NCBI RefSeq assembly: GCF_023516715.1
Contig: NZ_JAMGSI010000003.1
Location: forward strand, 62,001-126,000
DNA: 64,000 nucleotides
Direction of reading: 5' to 3'
Origin: Akkermansia massiliensis
Lineage (GTDB): Bacteria; Verrucomicrobiota; Verrucomicrobiia; Verrucomicrobiales; Akkermansiaceae
How positions within the stretch are numbered: the stretch's first letter is position 1; the number at the start of each line of letters is the position of its first letter. The notes beneath the pieces were generated by a model. That model saw nothing but the letters and a program-made list of their open reading frames with translations, had not been told where the DNA came from and did not search any database. This document shows, piece by piece, positions 42,216 through 57,524 of this stretch. Made by a program: the position numbers and the translations under genes.

Positions 42216-44888
42216 ATGTCTGATCTGCCCAAAGCATATGATCCGTCCCTAGTGGAAGAAAAATGGCAATCCCGCTGGATTGAAGAAGGTTGTTTCAAGG
42301 CTGACCCGGCTTCTGAAAAGCCTGCCTACTCCGTCGTCATTCCTCCCCCCAACGTCACGGGAGTGCTCCACCTGGGCCATGTGCTGAACAACACCATCCA
42401 GGACATCCTGGTGCGCCGCGCGCGCCAGAAAGGATATGAAGCCCTGTGGCTGCCGGGCACGGACCACGCCGGAATCGCCACTCAGGTACGGGTGGAAAAG
42501 GACCTCAAGCAGACGACGGGAAAGAGCCGCCATGACCTGGGCCGTGAAGCCTTCCTGGAAAAAGTCTGGGAATGGAAGGAAAAACACGGCGGCATCATCA
42601 TCAACCAGCTCCACAAGCTGGGCTGCTCCTGTGACTGGGACCGCGAACGCTTCACGATGGATGAGGAATACACCAAAGCCGTCGGGCAGGTATTCATTGA
42701 CCTCTTCCGGGAAGGCCTCATCTACCGCGGCCGCCGCATGGTCAACTGGTGCCCCGTTTCCCTCACCGCCCTCTCCGATGAGGAAGTCATCATGACGGAG
42801 CAAAAAAGCAAGCTTTACACCGTCCTCTACAAGCTGGAAGACGGCTCCGGAGCCCTTCACGTAGCCACCACCCGTCCGGAAACCATCATGGCGGACGTGG
42901 CCGTGGCCGTCAACCCGAAGGACCCGCGGTACGCCCACCTCATCGGCAAAAACGTCATGCGCCCGCTCAACGCCGCCCCCATTCCCATCATCGGGGATGA
43001 ATACGTGGAAATAGAATTCGGCACGGGCGCTCTGAAAATCACCCCGGCCCATGACAAGGCCGACTTTGAAATAGGCCGGAAATTCAATCTGGAAATCATA
43101 GACATCCTCACCCCCGACGGCCATATCAACTGCACGGAAGTGCCGGAACTGCACGGCATGGACCGCTTTGACGCGCGCCGGAAATCCGTGGAAATGCTGG
43201 AAGCCGCGGGCCTCATGGTCAAAATTGAAGACTATGACAACAAGGTGGGCTTCTCCGAACGCGCCAACGTCCCGATCGAACCGCGCCTCTCCATGCAATG
43301 GTTCCTCAAATACCCGTGCGTGAAGGAGGCGGCGGACGCCGTGGCCGGCGGGGACATCACCTTCCGCCCCGCGCGCTGGGCGAAAACCTATGCCCACTGG
43401 CTGGAAAACATCCAGGACTGGTGCATCTCCCGCCAGCTCTGGTGGGGGCACCGCATCCCCGTCTGGTACCGGAAGGACAAGGCGGAAGAACTCAGGAACG
43501 CCCCTGCTCTGGACGCCTCCGCCCTGGAGCAAGGCTTCCTCTACGTGGGAACCGAGCCGCCCGCGGATCCGGAAAACTGGACTCAGGACAGCGACGTGAT
43601 GGACACATGGTTCTCCTCCTGGCTGTGGCCCTTCTCCACCATGGATGACGAAACCCGCGCCAAATTCTACCCCACCACGGACCTCGTCACGGGACCGGAC
43701 ATCATCTTCTTCTGGGTGGCCCGCATGATCATGGCCGGCTACCGCTTCCAGCATGACAAGCCGTTCAGCAACGTCTTCTTCACGTCCATCATCCGCGACA
43801 AAATAGGACGTAAAATGAGCAAATCCCTGGGCAACTCCCCGGACCCGCTGGACCTGATCGCCAACTACGGCGCGGACGGCCTCCGCTTCGGCCTCATGCG
43901 CATCGCCCCCACGGGCACGGACGTGCGCTTTGACGAAAACCAGATCGGCGAGGGCAGGAACTTTGCCAACAAACTTTACAACGCCACCCGCTTCCGCCTG
44001 ATGCAGGGCGCGGCGGAGGAAGACGCTGCGCCGCACTACTCCCCCGTGCACATCTCCATCATCTCCAAGCTCAAGCAGCTCCATGCAGATGTGGAAAAAG
44101 CGCTGGCGGACTACGAATTCAACGCCCTCATCCAGAACCTGTACCAATTCTTCTGGAACGAATACTGCGACCGCTTCCTGGAAGCCGTCAAGGGAGATTT
44201 GAGGGACGGAGCGGACCCTGCGGCACGGGCGGCCACGCTAACCACCATGGACACGGTGCTCAGGCACTACCTGGCCCTGCTGCATCCGGTCATGCCGCAC
44301 ATCACGGAGGAACTCTGGGTTTCCCTGGGCTTTGCGGACGCCAACGGCGGCCTTCCGCTCATGCGCACCCCGCTCCCCTCCGCGGACGGTCTTCTGGCAG
44401 GGCTGGACGAAACCCGCATCACGCTGGCGAACACCCAGGCTGCGGCTCTCTATGAAACGGCCAACAAGGCCCGGAACCTGAAGGCGGAATACGACCTCTC
44501 CAACAACAAAAACGTCAGCTTCATCCTGAAAACCACCCATGACGTCCCGCTGGACATCCTCTCCCGGCTGTCCATTCTGGCAAACGCCAAATCCGTCACC
44601 CGGGACGCTGCCTACTCCGCCCCCAAGGGAACGCCTGCGGCCCTCACGCCGCTGGGAGAGCTCTTCCTTCCCCTGGAAGGACTCATTGACGTGGAAGCGG
44701 AAAAGGAACGACTGGGCAAGGAGCTGGACAAAATTGCCAGGGAAATCGCCAAATCCTCCTCCAAGCTGGGCAATGCGGGCTTTGTAGAAAGAGCCCCGGC
44801 GGAAGTCGTGGACCAGGAAAAAGCCCGTCTGGCGGATTGGGAGGCAAAACAGGCCCAACTGAAAGGGATGCTTGATTCCCTTTCCTAA
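42216..44888 (+). CDS. valS: Valyl-tRNA synthetase
   Basis: 890 aa from ATG 42216 (MSDLPKAYDP); the TTG at 42210 only adds two residues. Class I signatures are intact: HLGH at 52-55 within PPPNVTGVLHLGH, and K533-M-S-K-S537 in GRKMSKSLGNSPDP. The CP1 editing domain (about 195-345) has TTRPETIMADVAVAV and the C-terminal coiled-coil arm (about 825-890, LIDVEAEKERLGKELDKIAR) is the tRNA-binding arm typical of ValRS. No T-box is expected or seen. Confidence 0.97.
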   Translation: MSDLPKAYDPSLVEEKWQSRWIEEGCFKADPASEKPAYSVVIPPPNVTGVLHLGHVLNNTIQDILVRRARQKGYEALWLPGTDHAGIATQVRVEKDLKQTTGKSRHDLGREAFLEKVWEWKEKHGGIIINQLHKLGCSCDWDRERFTMDEEYTKAVGQVFIDLFREGLIYRGRRMVNWCPVSLTALSDEEVIMTEQKSKLYTVLYKLEDGSGALHVATTRPETIMADVAVAVNPKDPRYAHLIGKNVMRPLNAAPIPIIGDEYVEIEFGTGALKITPAHDKADFEIGRKFNLEIIDILTPDGHINCTEVPELHGMDRFDARRKSVEMLEAAGLMVKIEDYDNKVGFSERANVPIEPRLSMQWFLKYPCVKEAADAVAGGDITFRPARWAKTYAHWLENIQDWCISRQLWWGHRIPVWYRKDKAEELRNAPALDASALEQGFLYVGTEPPADPENWTQDSDVMDTWFSSWLWPFSTMDDETRAKFYPTTDLVTGPDIIFFWVARMIMAGYRFQHDKPFSNVFFTSIIRDKIGRKMSKSLGNSPDPLDLIANYGADGLRFGLMRIAPTGTDVRFDENQIGEGRNFANKLYNATRFRLMQGAAEEDAAPHYSPVHISIISKLKQLHADVEKALADYEFNALIQNLYQFFWNEYCDRFLEAVKGDLRDGADPAARAATLTTMDTVLRHYLALLHPVMPHITEELWVSLGFADANGGLPLMRTPLPSADGLLAGLDETRITLANTQAAALYETANKARNLKAEYDLSNNKNVSFILKTTHDVPLDILSRLSILANAKSVTRDAAYSAPKGTPAALTPLGELFLPLEGLIDVEAEKERLGKELDKIAREIAKSSSKLGNAGFVERAPAEVVDQEKARLADWEAKQAQLKGMLDSLS

Positions 44889-44899
44889 TCATCTATTCT
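44872..44899 (+). promoter_or_regulatory. Candidate promoter of the zinc-ribbon membrane protein gene
   Basis: TTGATT (44872-44877, inside the end of valS), a 16-bp spacer, TATTCT (44894-44899), then 7 nt to the ATG at 44907. Confidence 0.4.
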
Positions 44900-44906
44900 T
44901 CCGGGA

Positions 44907-45770
44907 ATGAATGACCTTCAACAGTACTTTGCCGGTCGTGAGCAATTCATTGAATTGCTGGAAGCGGTGGGCATACGTACTCTTGAACAATTCGCTTCCG
45001 CGGACCCTTTCACCGTTTTGCCTGAACTCCATCAGGCAAAACGGATGCTGAAACTGCGCACGGAAATACCTCCGGCTCCCGTTTTCAGGGAATGGGTGAA
45101 CCAGGCGCTTGCAATGCCCATAGCGCCGGAACCGGCTGCACTGCACGCTTCCACGGACGGAAGCCTCCCGCTTGCCACTCCCGTGGTGGAACTGGCTCCG
45201 GCGGTGCAGACAACTCCGCGGACATCCGGACCCGGCAGGGAAAAACGGCCACGCCCCCGTGCCGACGGCCCTGCGAAACATCTCTCCACCAAGGCAAGGC
45301 GCCAGGAAGAACAAAGCTACCAGCCCGCCAAGCGCGTCCATGTCCGGCAAGAGCCAAAAACCTACCTGCGCAAAAAGGGCGTCAAGCACATGACTCCTTT
45401 CCGGACATGGCTGGGAGCCGCCTCCGTCCTCCTCCTCTTCGTCTGCACCCTCTTTTCCATCGCAATCATCACCCTCGTGCTTCTCAACGGGGAACGAGGC
45501 TGGTTAATCATCAGCCTATGCTTCGGCCCCTGGTTTCTGGCGCTGATCCTGTATCTTTCCCTGGCGTTGCCCCGGAAATGTAGCGTATGCCGCGCCCACG
45601 TCTTCTCCTTTAAAAAATACACCCGCAACAAGGCGGCCCATCGCATCCCCCTCTTCGGCTACGTATTTGCCACGGCTCTGCATATATTCCTCTTCCACTG
45701 GTTCCGGTGCCCGGCCTGCGGTTCCTCCCAGCAGTTGGAAAAAACCCGCGCGGAACAGCACAAACACTAG
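44907..45770 (+). CDS. Membrane protein with N-terminal HhH-like region and zinc ribbon, unrecognised
   Basis: 287 aa. Residues about 10-50 (FIELLEAVGIRTLEQFASAD) have the look of a helix-hairpin-helix or DUF4332-like motif. A long Pro/Arg-rich disordered linker (about 75-160) follows, then three hydrophobic segments (about 168-190, 197-217, 250-267). Two CxxC knuckles (CSVCRAH between segments 2 and 3, and RCPACGSS after segment 3) could form a split zinc ribbon at the membrane face. This layout does not match a family I know. It begins 18 nt after valS, with a -10 box in the gap, so it may be transcribed both with valS and on its own. Confidence 0.6.
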   Translation: MNDLQQYFAGREQFIELLEAVGIRTLEQFASADPFTVLPELHQAKRMLKLRTEIPPAPVFREWVNQALAMPIAPEPAALHASTDGSLPLATPVVELAPAVQTTPRTSGPGREKRPRPRADGPAKHLSTKARRQEEQSYQPAKRVHVRQEPKTYLRKKGVKHMTPFRTWLGAASVLLLFVCTLFSIAIITLVLLNGERGWLIISLCFGPWFLALILYLSLALPRKCSVCRAHVFSFKKYTRNKAAHRIPLFGYVFATALHIFLFHWFRCPACGSSQQLEKTRAEQHKH

Positions 45771-46352
45771 CGTGCGCGTGGCCCCCTCCGCCTTGGCCTC
45801 CCCGGGATCTCCCGGCCTTTCTCCTGCGCGTAACGCCCGGAAAAAGGCTCCTTTCCTGTCCGGCGGCAGCAAGAACAGCAATCCCGAACAACGCGTTTCC
45901 CGCTCTTTGCCCTATCCCTGGGCCCCAAATCCGGATTCAGACGGGACAAACAGCCTTCCCTCTCCGAATTCTCTGAAATGGCCTTCTATCAGCGGTTCCC
46001 GCATCTTCCGCCGTCATCCCCTGCCCGGAAGCGGAACGGGCGCATCTCAAGTCTCTTGGCTCCCGGCACGCCCCAAGACATTCTCTCAGACAGACCGCCT
46101 GAGGCCCTTGCCTCCCTTCCGCCTGAAAAACCCGTATCGACATCTTCATGCCGTGCGATGTAAAAACACGTTCCCAACTCGGAAACACGGGAATCCATCG
46201 GGACGTTTCAAAAACAGGAAAAAACCTGCCCCATAAACTATTCCGGACTCTCTTCCCAGACGCCCGGCAAACTCGTAGTTCCGGTGACTTTATTGTTTCT
46301 CATGAAAAACGCCTCAAACACACATTCACCGGAAAAATACGGGCAACAAAAA
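45771..46352. other. Intergenic stretch without a supportable gene
   Basis: About 580 bp between a right-running gene and the terminator of the left-running ribosomal operon. Frames are present on both strands but are low-complexity Pro/Arg/Ser sequences without start signals or domains. No tRNA or known RNA fold was noticed. The expected continuation of the spc cluster (rplX, rplE) is not here. Confidence 0.45.
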
Positions 46353-46382
46353 AACGCCGTCCTCTCTTCAGAGAACGGCGTT
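46353..46382 (-). terminator. Terminator closing the ribosomal operon after rplN
   Basis: AACGCCGT/ACGGCGTT outer stem with inner CTCT/AGAG pairing, followed on the minus strand by TTTTTTTGTTG. It lies 21 nt after the rplN stop and separates rplN from any further spc genes. Confidence 0.9.
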
Positions 46383-46403
46383 CAAAATCCTGAGGTGTCT
46401 CGG

Positions 46404-46769
46404 TTAGAGCACTTCCGGAGCAAGGGAAACAATCTTCATGAACTTCTTTTCACGGAGTTCACGGGCGACCGGCCCGAAAATACGGGTGCCGCGCGGGTTG
46501 TTGTCCTTGTCGATAATGACGACGGCGTTGCCGTCAAAACGGAGCACGGAGCCGTCATCACGGCGGATCGGGGCGGCGGTGCGCACCACTACGGCCTTCA
46601 CCACAGTACCTTTCTTCACGGAAGCGGTGGGAATGGACTCGCGGATGTGGCAGGTAATAATGTCGCCAATGTGGGCCTGACGGGTGCGCTTGCCGATGAC
46701 GCCAATCATCTTGGCGGAGCGGGCGCCGGTGTTGTCGGCCACCTGGACTAGGGATTCCATCTGGATCAT
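46404..46769 (-). CDS. rplN: 50S ribosomal protein L14
   Basis: 121 aa, universal uL14 start [20 protein letters not shown] and [47 protein letters not shown] precedes the ATG by 10 nt, a clear Shine-Dalgarno. Normally the first gene of the spc cluster, here it is the last gene of the operon. Confidence 0.98.
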
Positions 46770-46806
46770 GGTATCAAATCTCCTTTATTTAATGGTTGAT
46801 TCCTGA

Positions 46807-47079
46807 TTAGTGGGTAAGCACTTCCACCAGTTCCCAGCACTTGAGCTTGGAAAGCGGGCGGGTTTCAACGATACGTACCTTATCGCCTACCTTGGCCGTG
46901 GAATTTTCGTCATGGGCATAGAACTTCTTGCTCTTCTTGACGATCTTCTTGAACTTGGGGTGCGGAACGCGGGCAACGTATTCCACGACGATGGTCTTGT
47001 CCATCTTGGTGGAGGTCACCACGCCGACGCGCGTCTTGCGAAGGCCGGGCTTCTTGGTTGTTTCGGTTTGTTCGGACAT
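46807..47079 (-). CDS. rpsQ: 30S ribosomal protein S17
   Basis: 90 aa. [19 protein letters not shown] and [35 protein letters not shown] are the uS17 motifs. It binds 16S rRNA early in 30S assembly. Between rpmC and rplN as usual. Confidence 0.98.
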
Positions 47080-47128
47080 TGGATTCTAAAAGTGTTAGAA
47101 TATTCTGTTGTTACCGGAAATCCTCAGT

Positions 47129-47332
47129 TTACGCTTCCCCGGTTTCACCCTTGATGGTAAGGGCGCGGGCAAGGTCCTTGCGGACGGTGCGGATTCTCTG
47201 GTTGTTTTCCAGCTGGCCGGTGGCCTGCTGGAGACGGAGATTGAAGAGTTCTTCACGAAGGCTGCGCACCAGAGCGGAAAGCTCTTTGGCGGACATAGCA
47301 CGAAGTTCTTTGGGGGAATTCTTATCAGACAT
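47129..47332 (-). CDS. rpmC: 50S ribosomal protein L29
   Basis: 67 aa. RAMSAKELSALVRSLREELF and QLENNQRIRTVRKDLARAL are the uL29 helices; the protein lies at the peptide exit. Standard position between rplP and rpsQ. Confidence 0.98.
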   Translation of the reverse strand: MSDKNSPKELRAMSAKELSALVRSLREELFNLRLQQATGQLENNQRIRTVRKDLARALTIKGETGEA

Positions 47333-47346
47333 GGTGATGAGTAGCT

Positions 47347-47769
47347 TTAGTGTTGAACGCCTTGACGATAGACGAAGCGGGTCGGCACGCCCAGCTTGTT
47401 GGAAGCCAGACGAAGAGCTTCGCGGGCCTGGGATTCGGTCACGCCGCCTACTTCAAACAGAATGTTGCCGGGACGGACAACGGCCACCCAGCCTTCCACG
47501 GCGCCCTTGCCCTTACCCATACGAGTATCCGGGGGACGGGACGTAAAGGACTTCTGCGGGAAAATGCGGATGAACACCTTACCTTTACGTTTCAGGTAAC
47601 GGTTGATCGCAATACGGCAGGCTTCAATCTGGTTGTTGGTGATCCAACCGCGGTCGAGCACCTGAAGGCCGAAGTCACCAAAGGCAACATAGGTACCGCT
47701 GGTGGCATTGCCGGAACGGCTGCCGCGGTGCATCTTGCGGTGCTTCACTCTTTTGGGCATTAAAGGCAT
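47347..47769 (-). CDS. rplP: 50S ribosomal protein L16
   Basis: 140 aa. [12 protein letters not shown] start and the uL16 signature [22 protein letters not shown] (seen in parts) with [23 protein letters not shown] lies 8 nt before the ATG at 47769, which supports this start over ATG 47760. Confidence 0.98.
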
Positions 47770-47820
47770 ATCTTATTCCTCCTTGTGTTAAGTGTGATGA
47801 ACAATGTGATGGCGGCTTTC

Positions 47821-48510
47821 TTAGGCACGCGGACGACGGGGACCGCGGGGGCCGGACGGGCGTGAGGTCTGCTGGGAGACGACTTCATCGCGCTTGTTGA
47901 CCCAGCACTTCACGCCGATGATGCCGTACAGGGTGCGGGCTTCGGCGAAACCGTAGTCAATCGGGGTGCGGAGCGTCTGCAACGGCACTTTGCCTTCGCG
48001 GTACCATTCGGCACGGGCGATATCGGCGCCGCCGAGACGGCCGGCGCAGCGGATGCGGATGCCGTCGGCGCCACGTTCCATGGCTACCTGCACGGCGCGC
48101 TTCATGGCGCGGCGGAAGGAAACGCGGCGTTCCAGCTGGACGGCCACGTTTTCAGCGATGAGCTGGGCGTCCGTTTCAGGAGAACGGATTTCCACGATGT
48201 CAATGTTGACCTGGGTGGAAGCGCCGCACAGGCCCTGGAGGTACTGGCGGATCTTTTCAATTTCTTCACCCTTGCGGCCGATGACAAGACCCGGACGGGC
48301 GGTGTGGACGGTAATGCGGACGCTGTTCCAGGCACGTTCAATCACGATGCTGGAGACGGCGGCGGACATCAACTGTTCCTTGATGTACTTGCGCATCACC
48401 AAGTCTTCATGCAGCTTGGTGGCGTAATCCTGGCCCGTGGCGTACCACTTGGAACGCCAGTCCTTGTTGACGGCGAGGCGGAACCCGATTGGATTTACTT
48501 TCTGACCCAT
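47821..48510 (-). CDS. rpsC: 30S ribosomal protein S3
   Basis: 229 aa. [20 protein letters not shown] start, KH-domain [18 protein letters not shown] and the C-terminal [20 protein letters not shown] signature of uS3. It is part of the mRNA entry site. Confidence 0.98.
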
Positions 48511-48549
48511 GATATTAGTTCAGCTATATGTGTGTTAGATTGGAATGAC

Positions 48550-48900
48550 TTAGCCTTCTTGATCGGCCAGTACGACGGTGATATGGGATGTGCGCTTGCG
48601 GATCATGTTGGCGGATCCACGGGCGCGGGGCATCGTGCGGCGCATCGTGGGGCGCATCGTGGGGCCTTCATCGACCATGACGGACTTGACCACCAGCGTG
48701 TCAACGGACAGTTCCGCATTATTCTCGGCGTTGGCCAAGGCGGACTTGAGCGTCTTATTCAGCAGGTAGGCACCCTTCTTGGGGGTGTAGGACAGGATGT
48801 CGGTCGCCTGGGAGACGGACAAGCCTTGAATTTCTTGAGCAATATCGCGCATCTTCTTGGCAGAGATGCGGGCGTATTTGTAAACAGCTTTCACTTCCAT
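48550..48900 (-). CDS. rplV: 50S ribosomal protein L22
   Basis: 116 aa. KYARISAKKMRDIAQEIQGL start and TPKKGAYLLNKTLKSALANA; the exit-tunnel hairpin lies around EGPTMRPTMRRTMPRARGSA, with the usual Arg-rich uL22 tip. It follows the inserted coiled-coil gene by 39 nt rather than rpsS directly. Confidence 0.98.
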   Translation of the reverse strand: MEVKAVYKYARISAKKMRDIAQEIQGLSVSQATDILSYTPKKGAYLLNKTLKSALANAENNAELSVDTLVVKSVMVDEGPTMRPTMRRTMPRARGSANMIRKRTSHITVVLADQEG

Positions 48901-48939
48901 GGGTTTTTCCTCGTAGTGCAGGTTATTGATGAAGATGAT

Positions 48940-49650
48940 TTAGTCGTTGGTTTTTACTGAGGCAGAATCTCCGACGCGCACCGGCTCGGCGGGCGCCGCA
49001 AGTTTCTGAACAAGCGCGCCACATACTTCCTTGCGGACGTCCGTGACTACGGCTTCTCCGATGGTTTGCGCTCCCCGGGTCACCTGTACGGGCATCCCGA
49101 CTTGCATCCCTGCCGTTCTGCCGGCGTTCAGCACCACTACTCCGGATTCGGAGTCAATGCTGAGCACCTTGGCTTCCGCCAGGGTTCCCGCGCCATCTCG
49201 CACGGGCTGTTGCCTGTATCCCAGAACGGACTCCAGCAGGCGCAGGGAGCTTTCCACTGCCGTCCTTGCATTTGCGTCCTCGGATATGGCTTGTTTCATG
49301 TAGGCGAGGATGGCTCCGGAGAGCTTGACGGACGCCTGCTCCAGCCGCTGAATGCGGTCATTGGAGGCTTCGATGTCTGCCACCGCCTGAATCAGGCGTT
49401 CCTCACTATTACCTAGCGCTGCGCCTCCCAAAGCTTCCAGCCGGGTACGGATGTCCACCAGCTGGGCGGCCGCCTTGTCGGCGTCGCTGCGGGCCTGGAC
49501 ATAGGATGCCTTGAGGGCCGCATTCTGCTTTTCGAGACGCTCGATTCTGCGCGTCAGTGCCGCCGTATCCTCTTCCGCTCCCTGCAGTATCCCGCCCAGC
49601 CCTACAAGGGTGGTAAGGGAATAGGCAAGGATGGAAGAAGAGTTCGACAT
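48940..49650 (-). CDS. Coiled-coil envelope-like protein inserted between rpsS and rplV
   Basis: 236 aa, not a ribosomal protein. The N-terminus has a hydrophobic segment (about 7-24, LAYSLTTLVGLGGILQGA) like a signal peptide or anchor. A heptad-rich coiled coil follows (about 27-75, RRIERLEKQNAALKASYVQA) with a second helical part to about 140. The C-terminal 75 residues form a beta domain (VLSIDSESGVVVLNAGRTAG, MQVGMPVQV, IGEAVVTDVRKEVCGALV, VRVGDSASV) that resembles the MreC/FlgT-like barrel pattern in which N-x-G-x-x-x-G-x-x-x-G-x-x-x-x-V recurs. It starts 20 nt after rpsS and ends 39 nt before rplV, on the same strand, so it must be co-transcribed with ribosomal genes. The role is unknown; a link between cell-envelope growth and ribosome output is only speculation. 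Confidence 0.75.
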   Translation of the reverse strand: MSNSSSILAYSLTTLVGLGGILQGAEEDTAALTRRIERLEKQNAALKASYVQARSDADKAAAQLVDIRTRLEALGGAALGNSEERLIQAVADIEASNDRIQRLEQASVKLSGAILAYMKQAISEDANARTAVESSLRLLESVLGYRQQPVRDGAGTLAEAKVLSIDSESGVVVLNAGRTAGMQVGMPVQVTRGAQTIGEAVVTDVRKEVCGALVQKLAAPAEPVRVGDSASVKTND

Positions 49651-49670
49651 GTTGATTGTTAACTTACTGA

Positions 49671-49940
49671 TTACTTCTTACCGATACCGCCGTGCTGTTT
49701 GAAGACACGAGTCGGGGCAAATTCACCAAGCTTGTGGCCTACCATGTTTTCCGTGACGTACACCGTGGCAAAGTTCTTGCCGGCGTGCACCAGGAAGGTC
49801 AGACCGACGAAGTCAGGCGTAATCATGGATGCGCGGCTCCAGGTCTTGATCGGCTTGCGGTCACCGGTTTCAAGCTGAGCGTCGATCTTGGCGAGAAGCT
49901 TTTGACTGACAAAAGGGCCTTTTTTGAGAGAACGTCCCAT
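49671..49940 (-). CDS. rpsS: 30S ribosomal protein S19
   Basis: 89 aa. [20 protein letters not shown] start and [19 protein letters not shown] are uS19 hallmarks. It is followed by a non-ribosomal gene instead of rplV. Confidence 0.98.
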
Positions 49941-49975
49941 GTTATATGATCCTAGTTAAAGTTATTGTGTATTGG

Positions 49976-50812
49976 TTACTTGGCGTTGCGGCGCTGTACG
50001 ATGACGGAGTCGCTGGGCTTGCGGAGACGGCGGGTCTTCTGGCCCTTGACGTGGCCCCACGGAGACTTGAGGTGCTGACGACCACCGCCGGACTTGGACT
50101 TGCCTTCACCACCACCGTTCGGGTGGTCGACGGGGTTCATCGTCATACCGCGCACGGTGGGACGAACGCCCATCCAGCGGGTGCGGCCGGCCTTGCCGGA
50201 CATTTCGTTCATGTGCTGGGTATTGCCAACCTGACCGATGGTGCAGTAGCAATCCTCATTGAAACGGCGGATTTCGCCGGAGGGCATCTTGATCAGCGCA
50301 TAGCCTGCTTCACGGTTGGAAACAATGGCCTGCTGGCCGGCTGCACGGGCAACCTTGCCGCCGGAACCCGGACGGATTTCAATGTTGTGAACGGAGGTAC
50401 CCAGGGGAACGTTCTTCAGGGGCATCGCATTGCCGACCTTGGGAGCAACCTTCTGGCCGCTTTCCACCTTCATGCCCACCTGGAGGCCCGTAGGAGCCAG
50501 GATGTAGGACTTTTCACCGTCCTTGTATTCGATCAAGGCGATGCGGCAGGTGCGGTTGGGATCGTATTCGATGGTAAGCACGGTGGCGGGCACGTCAAAC
50601 TTGTTGCGCTTGAAGTCCACCAGGCGATACTTGCGCTTGTGGCCACCGCCGATGTGGCGGGTGGTGATGCGGCCGTTGTTATTGCGGCCACCGGATTTCT
50701 TGAGGGGTCTGCAGAGACTCTTTTCCGGGGTAGAGGTAGTGATTTCGTCAAAGGACGGCCACACCTTGTAGCGGTTAGAGGGAGTAACTGGCTTGAATGA
50801 CTTGAGGGACAT
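49976..50812 (-). CDS. rplB: 50S ribosomal protein L2
   Basis: 278 aa. [20 protein letters not shown] start, [20 protein letters not shown] and the C-terminal [40 protein letters not shown] with the conserved His near the peptidyl-transferase centre. Confidence 0.98.
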
Positions 50813-50839
50813 GATAGCTTTCCTTCCTAGTAGGGGGCT

Positions 50840-51124
50840 TTAAACGAGGTCAAGGGTTTCACCGTTGGCAAGCTTGATGTAAGCTTTTTTCCAATGAGCG
50901 GTGCGACCTGCATCAGCACGGCGCTGACGCTTGAGCTTGCCGTCATAGTTGGCGGTGCGCACGGAAGCGACCTTCTTGCCGAAAGCGACTTCGACAGCCT
51001 TTTTGATTTCGATTTTGTTGGCGTCGCGGTCAACTTCAAGGACCAGCTCGCCAGTGGTTTCCTGGAGCATGGTGGCCTTTTCGCTGATGCGCACCTTCTT
51101 GATGACTTGGTAAATGTCTTTCAT
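50840..51124 (-). CDS. rplW: 50S ribosomal protein L23
   Basis: 94 aa. IYQVIKKVRISEKATMLQE start, VDRDANKIEIKKAVEVAFG and RTAHWKKAYIKLANGETLDL are uL23 motifs. It sits at the exit tunnel as a chaperone dock. 6 nt after rplD. Confidence 0.97.
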   Translation of the reverse strand: MKDIYQVIKKVRISEKATMLQETTGELVLEVDRDANKIEIKKAVEVAFGKKVASVRTANYDGKLKRQRRADAGRTAHWKKAYIKLANGETLDLV

Positions 51125-51130
51125 GGCTTC

Positions 51131-51739
51131 TTAAGCAGTACGGCTGGCGAGGGTTTCTAAAGCGTTGTCAACGAGGATCACTGCATCAGCGTTCATGAGC
51201 TGTTCAATGTTCACTTCTGCGGCGGTCATCAGGAGAACTTCCTGAACGTTGCGGCCGGCAAGATAGGTGGAATCGTCAAAGGAGGCGGCTACGATGAGCA
51301 CCTTCCTGGCGTCCGTCAGATCCTTGACGGCCTTGATGAAGGACTTGGTCTTGCCGTCAGCGACAGAGAATTCGGCAACGGTGCTGACCTTGGAAGCGGC
51401 GATCAGATCGCCCAGCACGCGGCGCAGGGCCAGGCGGCGGGTGCTCTTGTTCACCTTCTTGGTGTAGTCGCAGGGGCGGGGACCGAAGACCACGCCGCCG
51501 CCCACAAAGATGGGAGCGCGCTTGTCGCCGTGACGGGCATTACCGGTGCCCTTCTGGCGGAAGATCTTCTTGTTGTTGCCGCTGACTTCAGCACGGGTCT
51601 TGGAGTTGGCGGAACCGGTGCGGCGGTTCGCCTGGTAGGCCACGATGAGGTCATGCACGGCCTGGGAGCCCTTGTCACTGCCTACAAGCTGGATGTTGGC
51701 GGCAGCGGCGGCTTCTAATGTAAAGGTATTTGCGGACAT
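51131..51739 (-). CDS. rplD: 50S ribosomal protein L4
   Basis: 202 aa. The basic tunnel loop (RRTGSANSKTRAEVSGNNKK, FRQKGTGNARHGDKRAPIFV) and KVNKSTRRLALRRVLGDLI are diagnostic of uL4. In Proteobacteria L4 autoregulates the S10 operon; no such leader is identified here. Confidence 0.98.
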   Translation of the reverse strand: MSANTFTLEAAAAANIQLVGSDKGSQAVHDLIVAYQANRRTGSANSKTRAEVSGNNKKIFRQKGTGNARHGDKRAPIFVGGGVVFGPRPCDYTKKVNKSTRRLALRRVLGDLIAASKVSTVAEFSVADGKTKSFIKAVKDLTDARKVLIVAASFDDSTYLAGRNVQEVLLMTAAEVNIEQLMNADAVILVDNALETLASRTA

Positions 51740-51780
51740 AGATAGGTTTTCCTATAATCAATGTGAGGTTAACTAAAGCC

Positions 51781-52416
51781 TTACTTCTTCTTGGCGGGGC
51801 GGATCACGAGGTAGGAACCGCGTGCACCGGGAACGGCGCCGGAGATAAGAATGACGTTGTCTTCCGGACGTACGGCCACAACCTTCAGGTTCTGTACCGT
51901 GCGCTTGGCATTGCCCATCTGTCCGGGCATCTTCTGGTTCTTCCAGACGCGGCCGGGGGTGGAACAGCCACCCACACCACCGGTACGGCGGTGCATCATG
52001 GAACCGTGGGCGGCGGGAGAGCCGTGGAAGTTGTGGCGGCGCATCGCGCCCTGGAAGCCCTTCCCCTTGGAAGTGCCGATCACGTCAACCCACTGGCCGG
52101 CGGAAAAGAGGTCCACGCCGGGATCTTCAGCACCTTCAGCAGGCAGTTCGGAAGCTTCCACGCGGAATTCCTTGAGGAGCTTGGTGGGCTGGATGCCCAG
52201 TTTCTTGAAGTGGCCGGCCTGAGGCTTGGCCACGCGGCTTTCCTTCTGCGCATCAAAGGCAACCTGAATGGCGTTGTAGCCATCCTTGTCTTCCGTTTTG
52301 ATCTGGGCGAAGGTGTTGCCCTTTACGTCAATGACGGTCACGGGCACCATAGCGCCGGATTCCTGGTCAAACAGACGGGTCATACCGACCTTTTTTCCGA
52401 TAAGTCCTAGAGCCAT
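51781..52416 (-). CDS. rplC: 50S ribosomal protein L3
   Basis: 211 aa. ALGLIGKKVGMTRLFDQES start, the GTSKGKGFQGAMRRHNFHGS segment with the Gln that is often methylated, and MPGQMGNAKRTVQNLKVVAV. Standard uL3. Confidence 0.98.
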   Translation of the reverse strand: MALGLIGKKVGMTRLFDQESGAMVPVTVIDVKGNTFAQIKTEDKDGYNAIQVAFDAQKESRVAKPQAGHFKKLGIQPTKLLKEFRVEASELPAEGAEDPGVDLFSAGQWVDVIGTSKGKGFQGAMRRHNFHGSPAAHGSMMHRRTGGVGGCSTPGRVWKNQKMPGQMGNAKRTVQNLKVVAVRPEDNVILISGAVPGARGSYLVIRPAKKK

Positions 52417-52461
52417 TGTAGTGTGTCTTTCTGTTTTTTAATTACTTATCCGGGTACCAAA

Positions 52462-52770
52462 CTAGATGCGGATCGTGATGTCCACACCGGCCGGGAGATT
52501 GAGCTTCTTGAGCTCATCAATCGTGCGGGCGGTCGGGTCGACGATGTCGAGCAGGCGCTTGTGGGTGCGGATTTCAAATTGTTCAGCCGACTTCTTGTTG
52601 ACGTGAACGGAACGGTTCACGGAGAATTTTTCAATGCGGGTCGGCAACGGGATCGGGCCGTGAACTTTGGCTCCGGTGCGCTTGGCGGTTTCAACGATCT
52701 CCTGGGAGGAGCGGTCGATGGCGCGGGAGTCAAATGCGCGGAGTCGAATGCGGATTTTTGGACTTTGCAT
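52462..52770 (-). CDS. rpsJ: 30S ribosomal protein S10
   Basis: 102 aa. [20 protein letters not shown] start and [35 protein letters not shown] are uS10. It comes 38 nt after fusA with no tuf gene between, joining str and S10 clusters. Confidence 0.98.
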
Positions 52771-52807
52771 GGACGTGCGGTCTATTGGTTATACTTCAAA
52801 GGTTTGT

Positions 52808-54955
52808 TTATTTAGCCTTCTCGGTGACGATCTGGTCAACGAGGTTCTGAGGCACCTGTTCAAAGTGGGAGGGCTCCATGGAGTAGGAGGCGCGGCCACT
52901 GGAAAGGGTACGGATGGCGGTGGAATAACCGAACATTTCGGACAAGGGAACCATGGCCTTCAGGATGCAGGCGTTGGCCTTGTTTTCCATGTTGCTGATC
53001 TGACCGCGGCGGCGGTTCAGGTCACCCATGATGTCGCCCTGGTAGTCGGTCGGCGTGGAAGCTTCAACGGACATGATGGGTTCCAGCATGATGGGCTTGG
53101 CCTTCTTGAAGGCGTCCTTCATGGCGAAGATGGCGGCCATCTTGAATGCGTTTTCGTTGGAGTCCACTTCGTGGTAGGAACCGTCCACCACTTCAACGTG
53201 CACGTCCACCACCGGATAACCGGCGATAACGCCCGTGGTCATGGCTTCATTGAGGCCGGCATAGACGGCGTTCATGTATTCCTTCGGAATGGCGCCGCCC
53301 ACGATCTTGTTTTCGATGGTGAGGCCCTTGCCGCGTTCGTTCGGCTTCACGTCAATCACCACGTGGCCGTACTGGCCGCGGCCGCCGGACTGCTTGACCA
53401 GCTTGCCGTCGCCATGGGCGGGGGCAGTGATGGTTTCGCGGTAGGCGATCTGGGGCTTGCCGATGTCGGCTTCCACCTTGAATTCGCGCATCAGGCGGTC
53501 AATGATGATTTCCAGGTGAAGTTCACCCATGCCGGAGATCAGGGTTTGTCCGGTTTCTTCGTCGGTCTTCACGCGGAAGGTCGGGTCTTCTTCAGACAGG
53601 CGGCCCAGAGCGTTGGACATTTTTTCCTGGTCGGCCTTGGTCTTGGGTTCCACGGCCATGGAAATAACGGTTTCCGGGAAGGTAGGGGGTTCCAGGCAGA
53701 CATCGTTGTCCGGGCTGGTGATGGTGTCGCCCGTGGTCACGTTGCGCAGGCCCACGATGGCGGCGATGTCGCCGGAGTATACGGCGTCAATGTCCGTGTG
53801 CTGGTCAGCCTGGATCTGGATGATGCGGCCCACGCGTTCCGTCTTGCGGGTGCGGGGGTTGTACACGGTGTCACCCTTCTTGAGGACGCCGGCGTACACG
53901 CGGATGAACACCAGCTTGCCGACGAACTTGTCAGCCCAGAGCTTGAATGCCAGAACCATGGGCTTGGCGTCGTCCGTAGCGGTAATCTTGAAGGTTTCTT
54001 CCGCATCCAGCGTGCTTTCAGCGTGGGCGGGAACGGTTTCCACCGGAGAGGGGAGGTAATCCACCACGGCGTCAAGCAGGAACTGGACGCCCTTGTTCTT
54101 GAAGGCGGAACCACCGGCAACAGGGATGAACTTGTTGGTGATGGTGGCGCGGCGGATGGCTTCCTTGAGTTCCTTGGGGGTGAAGGGTTCTTCCATGAGA
54201 ACCTTTTCAGCAAGTTCGTCGTCCACGTCGGCCACGCGGCTCACCAGTTCATGGTAGGCCAGTTCGGCTTCTTCCTTGAGTTCAGCGGGGATTTCCTCAA
54301 CCGTGTAGGTGGAGCCCAGACGGTCGTTGTCGGCATACATGACAGCCTTCTGGTTCACCACGTCAATCTGGCCGCGGAGCTGGTCTTCAGCGCCGATGGG
54401 GATCAGAATGGCGGCGGCGTTCGCACCCAGCTTGTTGTGGATGTCGTCCAGCACGTTGTTGAAGTTGGCGCCGGTACGGTCCATCTTGTTCACGAAGCAC
54501 ATGCGGGGAACGCTGTACTTGGTGGCCTGGCGCCATACGGTTTCCGTCTGGGGCTGCACGCCGGCCACACCGCAGAATACCACGATGGCGCCGTCAAGCA
54601 CGCGGAGGGAACGTTCCACTTCAGCGGTGAAGTCAACGTGCCCGGGGGTGTCAATAATGTTCAGCTGGAAGTTTTCGCCTTCGAACATTTTGCTGATACC
54701 TTCATTTTTCACCTGCTTCCAGTTGGTGGTAACGGCAGCGGAGGTAATGGTGATACCGCGTTCGCGTTCCTGCTCCATCCAGTCGGTAGTGGTGGAACCG
54801 TCGTGGGTTTCACCGATCTTGTGAATCATGCCGGTGTAGAAAAGAATACGCTCGGACAAAGTAGTTTTGCCGGCGTCAATGTGAGCGGAGATACCGATGT
54901 TGCGGTAGCGCTCAAGGGGAGCCTTGCGATTGGGATTGTTTACGTGATCGGACAT
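52808..54955 (-). CDS. fusA: Elongation factor G
   Basis: 715 aa. GTPase motifs: AHIDAGKTTLSER (P-loop), DTPGHVDFTAEVERSLRVLD and NKMDRTGANF; domain IV has GGRGQYGHVVIDVKP and domain V GSYHEVDSNENAF. It translocates tRNA-mRNA. The frame is intact and of normal length, so this is a main EF-G. Confidence 0.98.
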   Translation of the reverse strand: MSDHVNNPNRKAPLERYRNIGISAHIDAGKTTLSERILFYTGMIHKIGETHDGSTTTDWMEQERERGITITSAAVTTNWKQVKNEGISKMFEGENFQLNIIDTPGHVDFTAEVERSLRVLDGAIVVFCGVAGVQPQTETVWRQATKYSVPRMCFVNKMDRTGANFNNVLDDIHNKLGANAAAILIPIGAEDQLRGQIDVVNQKAVMYADNDRLGSTYTVEEIPAELKEEAELAYHELVSRVADVDDELAEKVLMEEPFTPKELKEAIRRATITNKFIPVAGGSAFKNKGVQFLLDAVVDYLPSPVETVPAHAESTLDAEETFKITATDDAKPMVLAFKLWADKFVGKLVFIRVYAGVLKKGDTVYNPRTRKTERVGRIIQIQADQHTDIDAVYSGDIAAIVGLRNVTTGDTITSPDNDVCLEPPTFPETVISMAVEPKTKADQEKMSNALGRLSEEDPTFRVKTDEETGQTLISGMGELHLEIIIDRLMREFKVEADIGKPQIAYRETITAPAHGDGKLVKQSGGRGQYGHVVIDVKPNERGKGLTIENKIVGGAIPKEYMNAVYAGLNEAMTTGVIAGYPVVDVHVEVVDGSYHEVDSNENAFKMAAIFAMKDAFKKAKPIMLEPIMSVEASTPTDYQGDIMGDLNRRRGQISNMENKANACILKAMVPLSEMFGYSTAIRTLSSGRASYSMEPSHFEQVPQNLVDQIVTEKAK

Positions 54956-55018
54956 AGTGTCTGGAAAGTATCTGTAATGATCGAAAGTGAATGGTTCGGC
55001 TGACAGTCGCTGAAGGGA

Positions 55019-55492
55019 TTACCAGCGGAAGTGGGCAAAGGCGCGGTTGGCCTGGGCCATCTTGTGAACGTCGTCGCGCTTGCGGACGGAGGAACCCTGG
55101 TTGTTGGCGGCTTCCTTGATTTCGTTGGCAAGAGCCTTGTGCATCGGCACGCCCTTGCGGTTGCGGGCGTAGTTCACAATCCAGCGCATGGCCAGGGATT
55201 CGGAACGGGCCGGGTCCACTTCCAGAGGCACCTGGTAGGTGGCGCCACCTACGCGGCGGCTCTTCACTTCCACACGGGGCTTGGCATTTTCAATGGCGCG
55301 GGTGATCACTTCCAGGGGATCAATGCTGTCCGTGCCTTCGTTAGCCATGTCGATGGCGGCATAAACAATGCGTTCCGCAAGGGAGCGCTTGCCATCCAGC
55401 ATAACCTTGCTGATCAGTTTGCCAACAAGAGCGCTGTCGTAACGGGGGTCACGACGTTCGATTTTTCTATAGACGCGTTTACGGCGGGCCAT
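55019..55492 (-). CDS. rpsG: 30S ribosomal protein S7
   Basis: 157 aa. ARRKRVYRKIERRDPRYDSA start, LIYKVMLDGKR-type segment (LISKVMLDGKRSLAERIVYA), PRVEVKSRRVGGATYQVPLE and RWIVNYARNRKGVPMHKAL. It organises the 3' major domain of 16S. Confidence 0.98.
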   Translation of the reverse strand: MARRKRVYRKIERRDPRYDSALVGKLISKVMLDGKRSLAERIVYAAIDMANEGTDSIDPLEVITRAIENAKPRVEVKSRRVGGATYQVPLEVDPARSESLAMRWIVNYARNRKGVPMHKALANEIKEAANNQGSSVRKRDDVHKMAQANRAFAHFRW

Positions 55493-55519
55493 AATATATA
55501 GTAGGTAAGATGTTAATGT

Positions 55520-55903
55520 TTACTTGGCGGCAACCTTCGGGCGCTTGGCGCCATACTTGGAGCGGCCCTGGCGGCGCTTGTCAACACCGAGGCAGTCAAG
55601 AGCCCCGCGGACGATATGGTAGCGAACACCCGGCAAGTCCTTCACACGACCGCCGCGAACGAGCACGATAGAGTGTTCCTGGAGGTTGTGACCTTCACCG
55701 CCGATGTAGGCGATCACTTCTTCACCATTGGTAAGACGGACTTTAGCCACTTTACGAAGAGCCGAGTTCGGCTTCTTGGGCGTACGGGTCATTACCTGGA
55801 GACAAACACCGCGGCGTTGCGGGCAGCTATGAAGAGCGCGTGACTTGGACTTCTCTTCCGGAGTAATACGTCCCTTGCGGACGAGCTGATTAATGGTCGG
55901 CAT
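55520..55903 (-). CDS. rpsL: 30S ribosomal protein S12
   Basis: 127 aa. [12 protein letters not shown] start, [20 protein letters not shown] with the wild-type Lys in TPKKPNS, where changes give streptomycin resistance, and [20 protein letters not shown]. First gene of the ribosomal superoperon; AGGAAA lies just before the ATG. Confidence 0.98.
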
Positions 55904-56023
55904 GTTTTCCTGCTTTGGTTGTGGTTCGTCGGTCTGGTCCGATATTCAAGGCGAACATCCCTTTCAGTAAGCAGGAAGCGCGCCTTTTTTCCGGAGGCAA
56001 ACCCGATAGAAAACGTATTTCTT

Positions 56024-56037
56024 GCGCCTTTCGGCGC
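56024..56037 (-). other. GNRA-type hairpin in the rpsL leader
   Basis: GCGCC-GAAA-GGCGC in the minus-strand transcript, about 120 nt before the rpsL start. Possibly regulatory or a stabilising leader hairpin. Confidence 0.4.
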
Positions 56038-56051
56038 GTTTGGGGACGGCC

Positions 56052-56079
56052 AATATAACGTGATTTTATATCATGACAA
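56052..56079 (-). promoter_or_regulatory. Promoter of the ribosomal superoperon
   Basis: On the minus strand: TTGTCA (56074-56079), a 16-bp spacer, TATATT (56052-56057). It leaves a leader of about 140 nt before rpsL, unlike most promoters in this window. Confidence 0.65.
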
Positions 56080-56088
56080 GTCTTTTAT

Positions 56089-57165
56089 TCATCTTTTCCT
56101 AAATATTTCATCCGTACCATTTTCCCCTGCTCTTTCCCAAGCTTCATTCCGGGTTGCCGGCGCCTTTTTCAGCCTCTTCCCCACCTGGCAGACCTCCACA
56201 TGCTGATAGACGAAATAGGCGATAACCAGGGAAACACACAAGGCGATTCCCCAGAATAAAACTGGAGGCCATCCACCCCCCACTTCATTCCCGCATGTTC
56301 CCGCAGCATGCGGAGTACTTCGGCCATGCCCCGCATCACCGGCATGTGGAACAGAAAAAGGGCGTAAGCCATTCCCGCGCCAATCCCCACCCATTTCAGG
56401 AGGGGGCAGGCAGGGACGGCAGGCGGACGCTCCACAGGGAGGCAATGCACAGGGCAAAGATGACGGAAGAAACAACGTACCCCGGGAATGAATAGCTCAG
56501 GGCTCCGATTCCTTCATGGGTGGCGGCAGAAGAAGCCAGCAGCCACGCCGCGCCTGCTCCAATCCAAAACCATCGCCATGGACTCTTCCACCGTTCCATA
56601 TTCCAGGACGCACACCACATCCCCAGCAAAAACTGCCACAGGCGGAAACTCACCTGATAATACAGCCTGCCGTAGTCCATCACGGTGCCGCTCCGGAACG
56701 CAGCAAAAAGAACGCTTGCCGCCAGAAGCCACAGGAACGGCCTTTTCTCGTAATAACGGTAAAGCCACGGAAACAGCGCCAGAAAGGCCATGATGCAGAC
56801 GATGAACCAGACCGCCGCCTTCCCCATCATCTTCCACATCGCAAGTGTTGGCGCGGCTATCAGCAGCCTGACTCCGGCCCACGCCGTCGCCTGCTGGCCT
56901 TCAATAAGAAGAACGGCAAAACCGGCAGTCCAGGCAATCAACAGCACCGGCAGCAGGCGTCAGCCTTTTTCCGGCAATATTCCCCGATGCTTCCTTGTGT
57001 GAAACCTCCGGCGGATCGAACGGCCAGAAAACCGCTCAAGACAAAAAAGCCATCCACAGCCACGCTCCCTCCGCAATTCCATCCCCCGCTGTAATGGAAA
57101 AAGACAACCGTCAGGCACAACAAAATTCTCAGCAGATCCAATCCATAATTCCTGACAGGCAGCAT
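56089..57165 (-). pseudogene. Acyltransferase-3 family membrane protein, broken by frameshifts
   Basis: Three overlapping frames together spell an OafA/YrhL-type acyltransferase-3 protein. Frame 1 from ATG 57165 gives NYGLDLLRILLCLTVVFFHY and DGFFVLSGFLAVRSAGGF. After a shift near 56955-56970, frame 2 continues LLIAWTAGFAVLLIEGQQ to about 56396. After a second shift near 56395-56415, frame 3 gives LLKWVGIGAGMAYALFLFHM. A third shift at a run of six C (56276-56281) leads to FWGIALCVSLVIAYFVYQHV. The shifts at 56395-56415 and 56276-56281 lie at C5 and C6 homopolymers. The protein would O-acylate a surface glycan. Decay, phase variation or sequencing error in homopolymers are all possible. Confidence 0.75.
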
Positions 57166-57524
57166 ATCCGGAAGCCAACGGATAAGCAATCCGTTACAGA
57201 CTGGAGACGGGGAAGCATTCCCCTGTCCACGGGGAGCGGAGCAGTCCTTTGTGGAACTGGAATGCAAACGTCCGCCAGGATGTACCGGCTTTAGGGAAGA
57301 GGGTTCGCTAACGTTCCCTTTCAAATTGAGATGCCGGAGAGGCTTGCGCCGCATCCCGTCCGGGCACGCAGTTCCGAAGGTTTTCCCTTTCCATGCAAAC
57401 GGCTTCCGATAGGCAAGGGGGAGTCATCGCAAGTTTTTCTCCCTTGGAAATACCGCTTGACCACGGATTGCTTATCCGCATCCTTTTCCGGCGTTTTTCC
57501 GTCAGGGCAACACGGAGACAAAAA
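57166..57524. other. Intergenic stretch without a supportable gene
   Basis: About 360 bp between the gpmI terminator and the broken acyltransferase. It should hold the promoter of the latter. Nothing else is recognised. Confidence 0.4.

Follow-up and report, generated by a model that had tools for sequence, protein, structure and literature searches.

Gene X, situated between rpsS and rplV within the S10 operon of Akkermansia massiliensis, may be an ancestral exported envelope protein of the Verrucomicrobiota that would be read from a ribosomal-protein transcript; we consider this reading, with export, co-transcription and growth coupling as its putative elements, to be evenly poised. Few gene orders in Bacteria are as conserved as that of the S10 operon, and it is already known that ribosomal operons can carry non-ribosomal genes such as secY, adk and map. 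In the window (the whole stretch of DNA analyzed, 64,000 nucleotides), X combines a conserved domain, a conserved position, purifying selection, a hydrophobic N-terminus and a codon usage that is not ribosomal. We found no description of X in the literature: titles and the starts of abstracts yielded no paper on a gene that separates rpsS from rplV in the phylum, and such a gene is unmentioned in passages of PMC2474590, PMC3444138, PMC12283558 (with its outline and abstract) and PMC4960237.

The features of the locus and of the protein are the following.

46352..46383, minus strand: terminator-like hairpin 3' of rplN, 14 pairs with a T-rich tail; possible transcript end
48550..48900, minus strand: rplV (L22), downstream neighbor of X; Pfam L22, E 6.1e-36
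48901..48939, minus strand: spacer between X and rplV, 39 nt, with a Shine-Dalgarno-like GAGG match
48940..49650, minus strand: gene X, 236 aa, ATG start; exported-looking helical protein with a C-terminal beta domain
48949..49182, minus strand: C-terminal six-stranded beta-barrel domain, residues 157-234, the conserved core; predicted from AF2 of the last 87 aa
49222..49575, minus strand: helical, coiled-coil-like middle, residues 26-143; helices 26-73, 79-121 and 126-143 in a low-confidence AF2 model, and a periodicity test
49576..49650, minus strand: N-terminal hydrophobic segment, residues 1-25, Kyte-Doolittle 1.7 at residue 7; putative signal peptide or membrane anchor
49651..49670, minus strand: spacer between rpsS and X, 20 nt, without a clear Shine-Dalgarno match
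49671..49940, minus strand: rpsS (S19), upstream neighbor of X; Pfam S19, E 7e-35

The original prediction had described a co-directional frame of 236 aa that is separated from rpsS and rplV by gaps of 20 and 39 nt, and both the coordinates and the Pfam neighbors agree with it. Compared with five Akkermansia-type loci, X evolves under purifying selection (dN/dS 0.06-0.20); the values for rplV, and for rpsC against L033, were left unused as apparently spoiled by unequal lengths. Because of this selection and of the homologues at the same position across the order, X is not a chance ORF. No Rfam family matched at gathering score within 44500-57500.

To determine how widely the insertion is conserved, as the original prediction had proposed, rplV stretches from the genus, the order and the phylum were compared. 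X was directly upstream of rplV in all 26 genus genomes having rplV, in 22/22 other genomes of the order (with rpsS upstream in 21 and a contig start in one), and in the six named Akkermansia-type records. A further 11 genomes of the genus, in which X gave no strong match, were set aside as assembly gaps, since rplV was also missing from every one of them. A protein search in 59 relatives gave X matches in 55 (E <= 0.01, paralogues counted). At the level of the phylum, X was immediately upstream of rplV in 94 of the 143 genomes examined, representing 30 of 43 families, so that a gene suggested to be possibly specific to one lineage turned out to be spread across the Verrucomicrobiota. These counts refer to the rplV stretches of 143 out of 194 sampled genomes; part of the remaining 51 had no L22 match. 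The order rpsS-X-rplV was found in 58 of the 94 (47.7-103.2 bits); in the other 36, X adjoined rplV and rpsS was not found upstream (14.5-54.8 bits) within the stretch read, which covered at least 500 nt upstream of the X frame in 30 of them and less in six. The domain profile contained no row from 70 of the 94 X-bearing genomes, and all 36 without an upstream rpsS belong to ten families without a row in it. The X and L22 distances among the 94 genomes were correlated (Spearman 0.505; the maximum of 500 permutations was 0.082), as expected under vertical descent.

The junction is not occupied everywhere. In 33/143 genomes rpsS and rplV were at most 316 nt apart and X was absent, and in 16 others both X and rpsS were missing upstream of rplV; in all, rpsS was not found in the stretch read upstream of rplV in 52 of the 143. 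In 48 of 194 genomes the domain had no match anywhere. It was found in none of seven genomes of family f25, none of five of f26 and one of five of f19 (E 7e-4), and X must be dispensable in these families, given its absence from nearly all their genomes. In four genomes (G063, G137, G170 and G202) rpsS is far from rplV on one contig, which shows that the S10 operon was split at this junction, and X stays on the rplV side. In one further genome (G231) roughly 3.4 kb, including another frame, separate an X-like match from rplV downstream of it.

In one genus (g58, family f18) X has left rplV altogether: it was missing there in all 13 genomes examined, 12 of which carry a single X-like match elsewhere. 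In the four loci tested (L269, L271, L275 and L280) the relocated gene is preceded by an ACR_tran gene for an RND pump of the AcrB type. Both frames are visible in L269, L275 and L280, and the match of L271 starts 415 nt past the pump frame; the arrangement in L270 and L274 is similar as judged by eye only, and further relocated copies have neighbors other than an RND pump. Whatever X does, linkage to rplV is thus not required for it in this genus. The absence from the 33 genomes with rpsS and rplV close together and the relocation in one genus constitute the main counter-evidence to the preferred reading, and they fit a place that is habitual rather than needed.

These observations bear on a neutral origin of the arrangement, in which X would have inserted long ago at a permissive junction and stayed since the operon resists rearrangement, without any link to translation. 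The variable junction (33/143 genomes without X, 52 without rpsS found upstream) speaks for this explanation, as does the copy elsewhere in 12/13 genomes of g58, which implies that the job of X does not need the operon. It accords poorly, however, with purifying selection at dN/dS 0.06-0.20, with the presence of X in 30/43 families, with its staying beside rplV in the 36 genomes without an upstream rpsS found, and with the lack of any protein match in phage or plasmid collections. We regard it as rather unlikely. A mobile origin of X was dropped on the same search of phages and plasmids, in collections that may omit records very near the genome of the window. The specific version first put forward, in which strong expression keeps a hitch-hiker in place, agrees poorly with an average codon usage and, again, with the 36 genomes in which X is found at rplV and no rpsS was found upstream.

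The codon adaptation index of X in the window was 0.354, against a median of 0.3545 for 43 other long ORFs, a mechanically compiled background in which some ORFs run antisense to ribosomal genes and one gene, with 0.715, is itself ribosomal-like. The twelve ribosomal genes and fusA ranged from 0.556 to 0.782. Over 85 loci, the codon bias of X was below that of rpsS in 76, below that of rplV in 65 and below both in 60, so the lower bias is general, not universal. Since X is under purifying selection without having ribosomal codon usage, it is probably not a component of the ribosome. This agrees with the prediction that X would lack ribosomal-protein features; no ribosomal-protein family was among the Pfam and NCBIfam matches listed for X or for 41 diverse copies of its domain.

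No minus-strand promoter-like or terminator-like site was found between rpsS and rplV. A promoter-like site lies ahead of rpsC (48538-48509), and the best terminator-like site follows rplN; the region has 15 such sites in total against 12.7 in shuffled sequence, a difference that is weak alone. X is without a Shine-Dalgarno sequence in the human Akkermansia group, as is rpsC, and neighboring genes often lack one in the genus; Shine-Dalgarno strength was therefore dropped as evidence. We also observed that rplN, followed by the terminator-like hairpin (46352-46404), is the last gene of the S10 cluster and that the spc-cluster gene for L5 lies on a different contig (G000:C2:419838).

The protein has three parts. 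As predicted, its N-terminus is hydrophobic, with a best 15-aa Kyte-Doolittle mean of 1.7 at residue 7. Among the X proteins of the phylum, 82/94 reached a hydrophobicity of at least 1.6 at the N-terminus, against 4/94 L22 controls and 31/94 shuffled N-termini. This segment, assessed by its hydrophobicity, marks X as a candidate for export; in the X of the window the hydrophobicity is modest and the positive residues usual in signal peptides are absent. The heptad repeats proposed for the middle were recovered as a periodicity in the heptad range over residues 26-145, matched by 6 of 1000 shuffles. AF2 of full-length X, with seven close sequences, reached a mean pLDDT of 51.7, too poor for a fold search. 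The C-terminal 87 aa modeled alone gave six predicted strands (pLDDT 77.1, pTM 0.67), and an alignment of the 41 diverse domains (A1, 87 columns) contains two invariant glycines. This C-terminal domain of about 80 aa is the constant part of X, and the helical middle is variable: by longest frame the 94 proteins are 111-501 aa long (median 242.5), and in the short forms of about 112-130 aa the helical middle is missing, leaving little beyond the hydrophobic start and the barrel.

A family of X paralogues in the phylum, Y, is like X in having a hydrophobic N-terminus, a long helix and a C-terminal domain homologous to that of X (E 2.6e-21 in a profile comparison). It differs in that its genes are elsewhere in the genome, paired in tandem at 7 of 20 loci that were retrieved for carrying such a domain. 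The genome of the window itself has tandem X paralogues of this layout, 271 and 283 aa long, close to a radC-like gene (L242 7282-8996, on G000:C2).

The whole X protein had no Pfam or NCBIfam match above cut-off, and its best PDB chain was not below E 0.038. The C-terminal domain had been described as MreC/FlgT-like, a likeness that holds only as a weak, sub-threshold resemblance: FlgT_C (PF16538) was found in 13 of the 41 domains (best E 2.2e-3) and the commonest NCBIfam MreC model in eight (best E 1.7e-4). FlgT and TsaP are envelope proteins, and the C-terminal domain of the former and the C-terminal region of the latter share with X a glycine-rich beta motif; unlike the FlgT domain, X was nowhere above the PF16538 cut-off in 115 genomes. 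The best PDB profile match of the domain was TsaP (3jc8), with a whole-chain E of 3.5e-5 and only 0.068 for the best single stretch. 

The likeness to MreC raises the idea that X is an elongasome scaffold of the MreC type, perhaps replacing MreC in Akkermansia. The layout of X, with its N-terminal hydrophobic segment, coiled coil and beta domain, is that of MreC, and a short glycine-containing stretch is shared in addition to the weak matches given above. MreC (PF04085) was found in none of 37 genus genomes, while eight of the nine genus genomes searched have a clear MreB (E below 1e-130), the ninth, which is 80% complete, giving a weak partial match. In the genome of the window no mreC lies beside mreB (L262, G000:C2:1010000-1026000), the next frame being RNase G-like by eye. 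The two genes are not adjacent either, mreB being on contig C2 and X on contig C3. In the rest of the order MreC is present in 22/22 genomes, all of which also have X, so X is not simply the MreC of these organisms; a stand-in confined to Akkermansia would be compatible with this. Aligned by hhalign to 22 MreC proteins, the X domain reached a probability of 2.5% over 44 columns, and the single predicted barrel of X differs from the beta core of MreC, which is two-part. The AF2 model bore out the predicted C-terminal beta domain. Membership in MreC is not supported, the profile comparison being not significant, and we find an MreC-type scaffold quite improbable.

A search of the barrel model against the PDB with Foldseek gave no match at E <= 0.001. 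In a structure comparison by Z-score the barrel resembled many unrelated proteins equally, as a common barrel would. FlgT, TsaP and MreC were not among the structural matches listed by either method, which excludes nothing. The periplasmic adaptors EmrA, MacA and ZneB were among the top rows (Z 8.9 to 8.0), EmrA aligning over 84 residues with an rmsd of 2.9 at Z 8.9. That X belongs to an efflux or secretion assembly as a periplasmic, adaptor-like component would also accord with a MexC-like match to a PDB profile (whole-chain E 0.0011, best stretch 0.03) and with the ACR_tran genes adjoining relocated X. The barrels of F1/V1-ATPases score about Z 8, though, within 1 of the best (8.0 for the F1-ATPase rows), no adaptor family was above its cut-off, and the RND neighbors are confined to one genus and may stem from one event. 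An adaptor role appears improbable to us.

The same comparisons bear on the proposal that X works on the cytoplasmic side as a factor associated with the ribosome or the translocon, which its location among ribosomal genes would suggest. Ribosomal protein L35Ae was rank 2 with Foldseek, but weakly (E 0.02, TM 0.48), and the maturation factor RimP weakly matched one of the 41 domains (E 0.023). Against such a factor stand the hydrophobic N-terminus in 82/94 proteins, a codon usage different from that of ribosomal genes, an amino-acid change that is faster in X than in rplB, and a barrel equally like many unrelated proteins. We hold this to be very improbable.

Under the preferred reading of X as an exported envelope protein, the product would be exported or anchored through its hydrophobic N-terminus. 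The helical region of the long forms would probably serve for oligomerization or reach across the periplasm, and the conserved barrel at the C-terminus may be the part that binds a partner; the short forms would retain just the hydrophobic start and the barrel. X would be part of the S10-operon transcript, or of its rplV half where rpsS is elsewhere. If X is on this transcript, its mRNA should track ribosome synthesis, and ordinary codon usage may hold the protein below ribosomal-protein amounts. A coupling of envelope and translation via X, as originally proposed, is possible. The strongest form of the idea, that Verrucomicrobiota hard-wire envelope growth to ribosome synthesis through a scaffold whose dose follows ribosomal-protein transcription, whose barrel controls envelope assembly and which stayed with rplV where rpsS is no longer near, we think doubtful.

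A non-ribosomal gene with an exported-looking product, kept in the S10 operon of 30 of the 43 families sampled and remaining at rplV where rpsS is elsewhere, would present a natural case for the matching of envelope growth with ribosome synthesis, and in Akkermansia X can serve as a marker as well as a candidate gene. Another small conserved protein of the PVC group, the signature protein CT421.2 (about 53 to more than 80 aa), has been put forward as a marker for the wider group (PMC3444138); X is likened to it by description. Elsewhere in the window, a plus-strand frame of 287 aa (44907-45770) has hydrophobic segments and a borderline match to DUF4332 (22.4 bits against a cut-off of 23.2).
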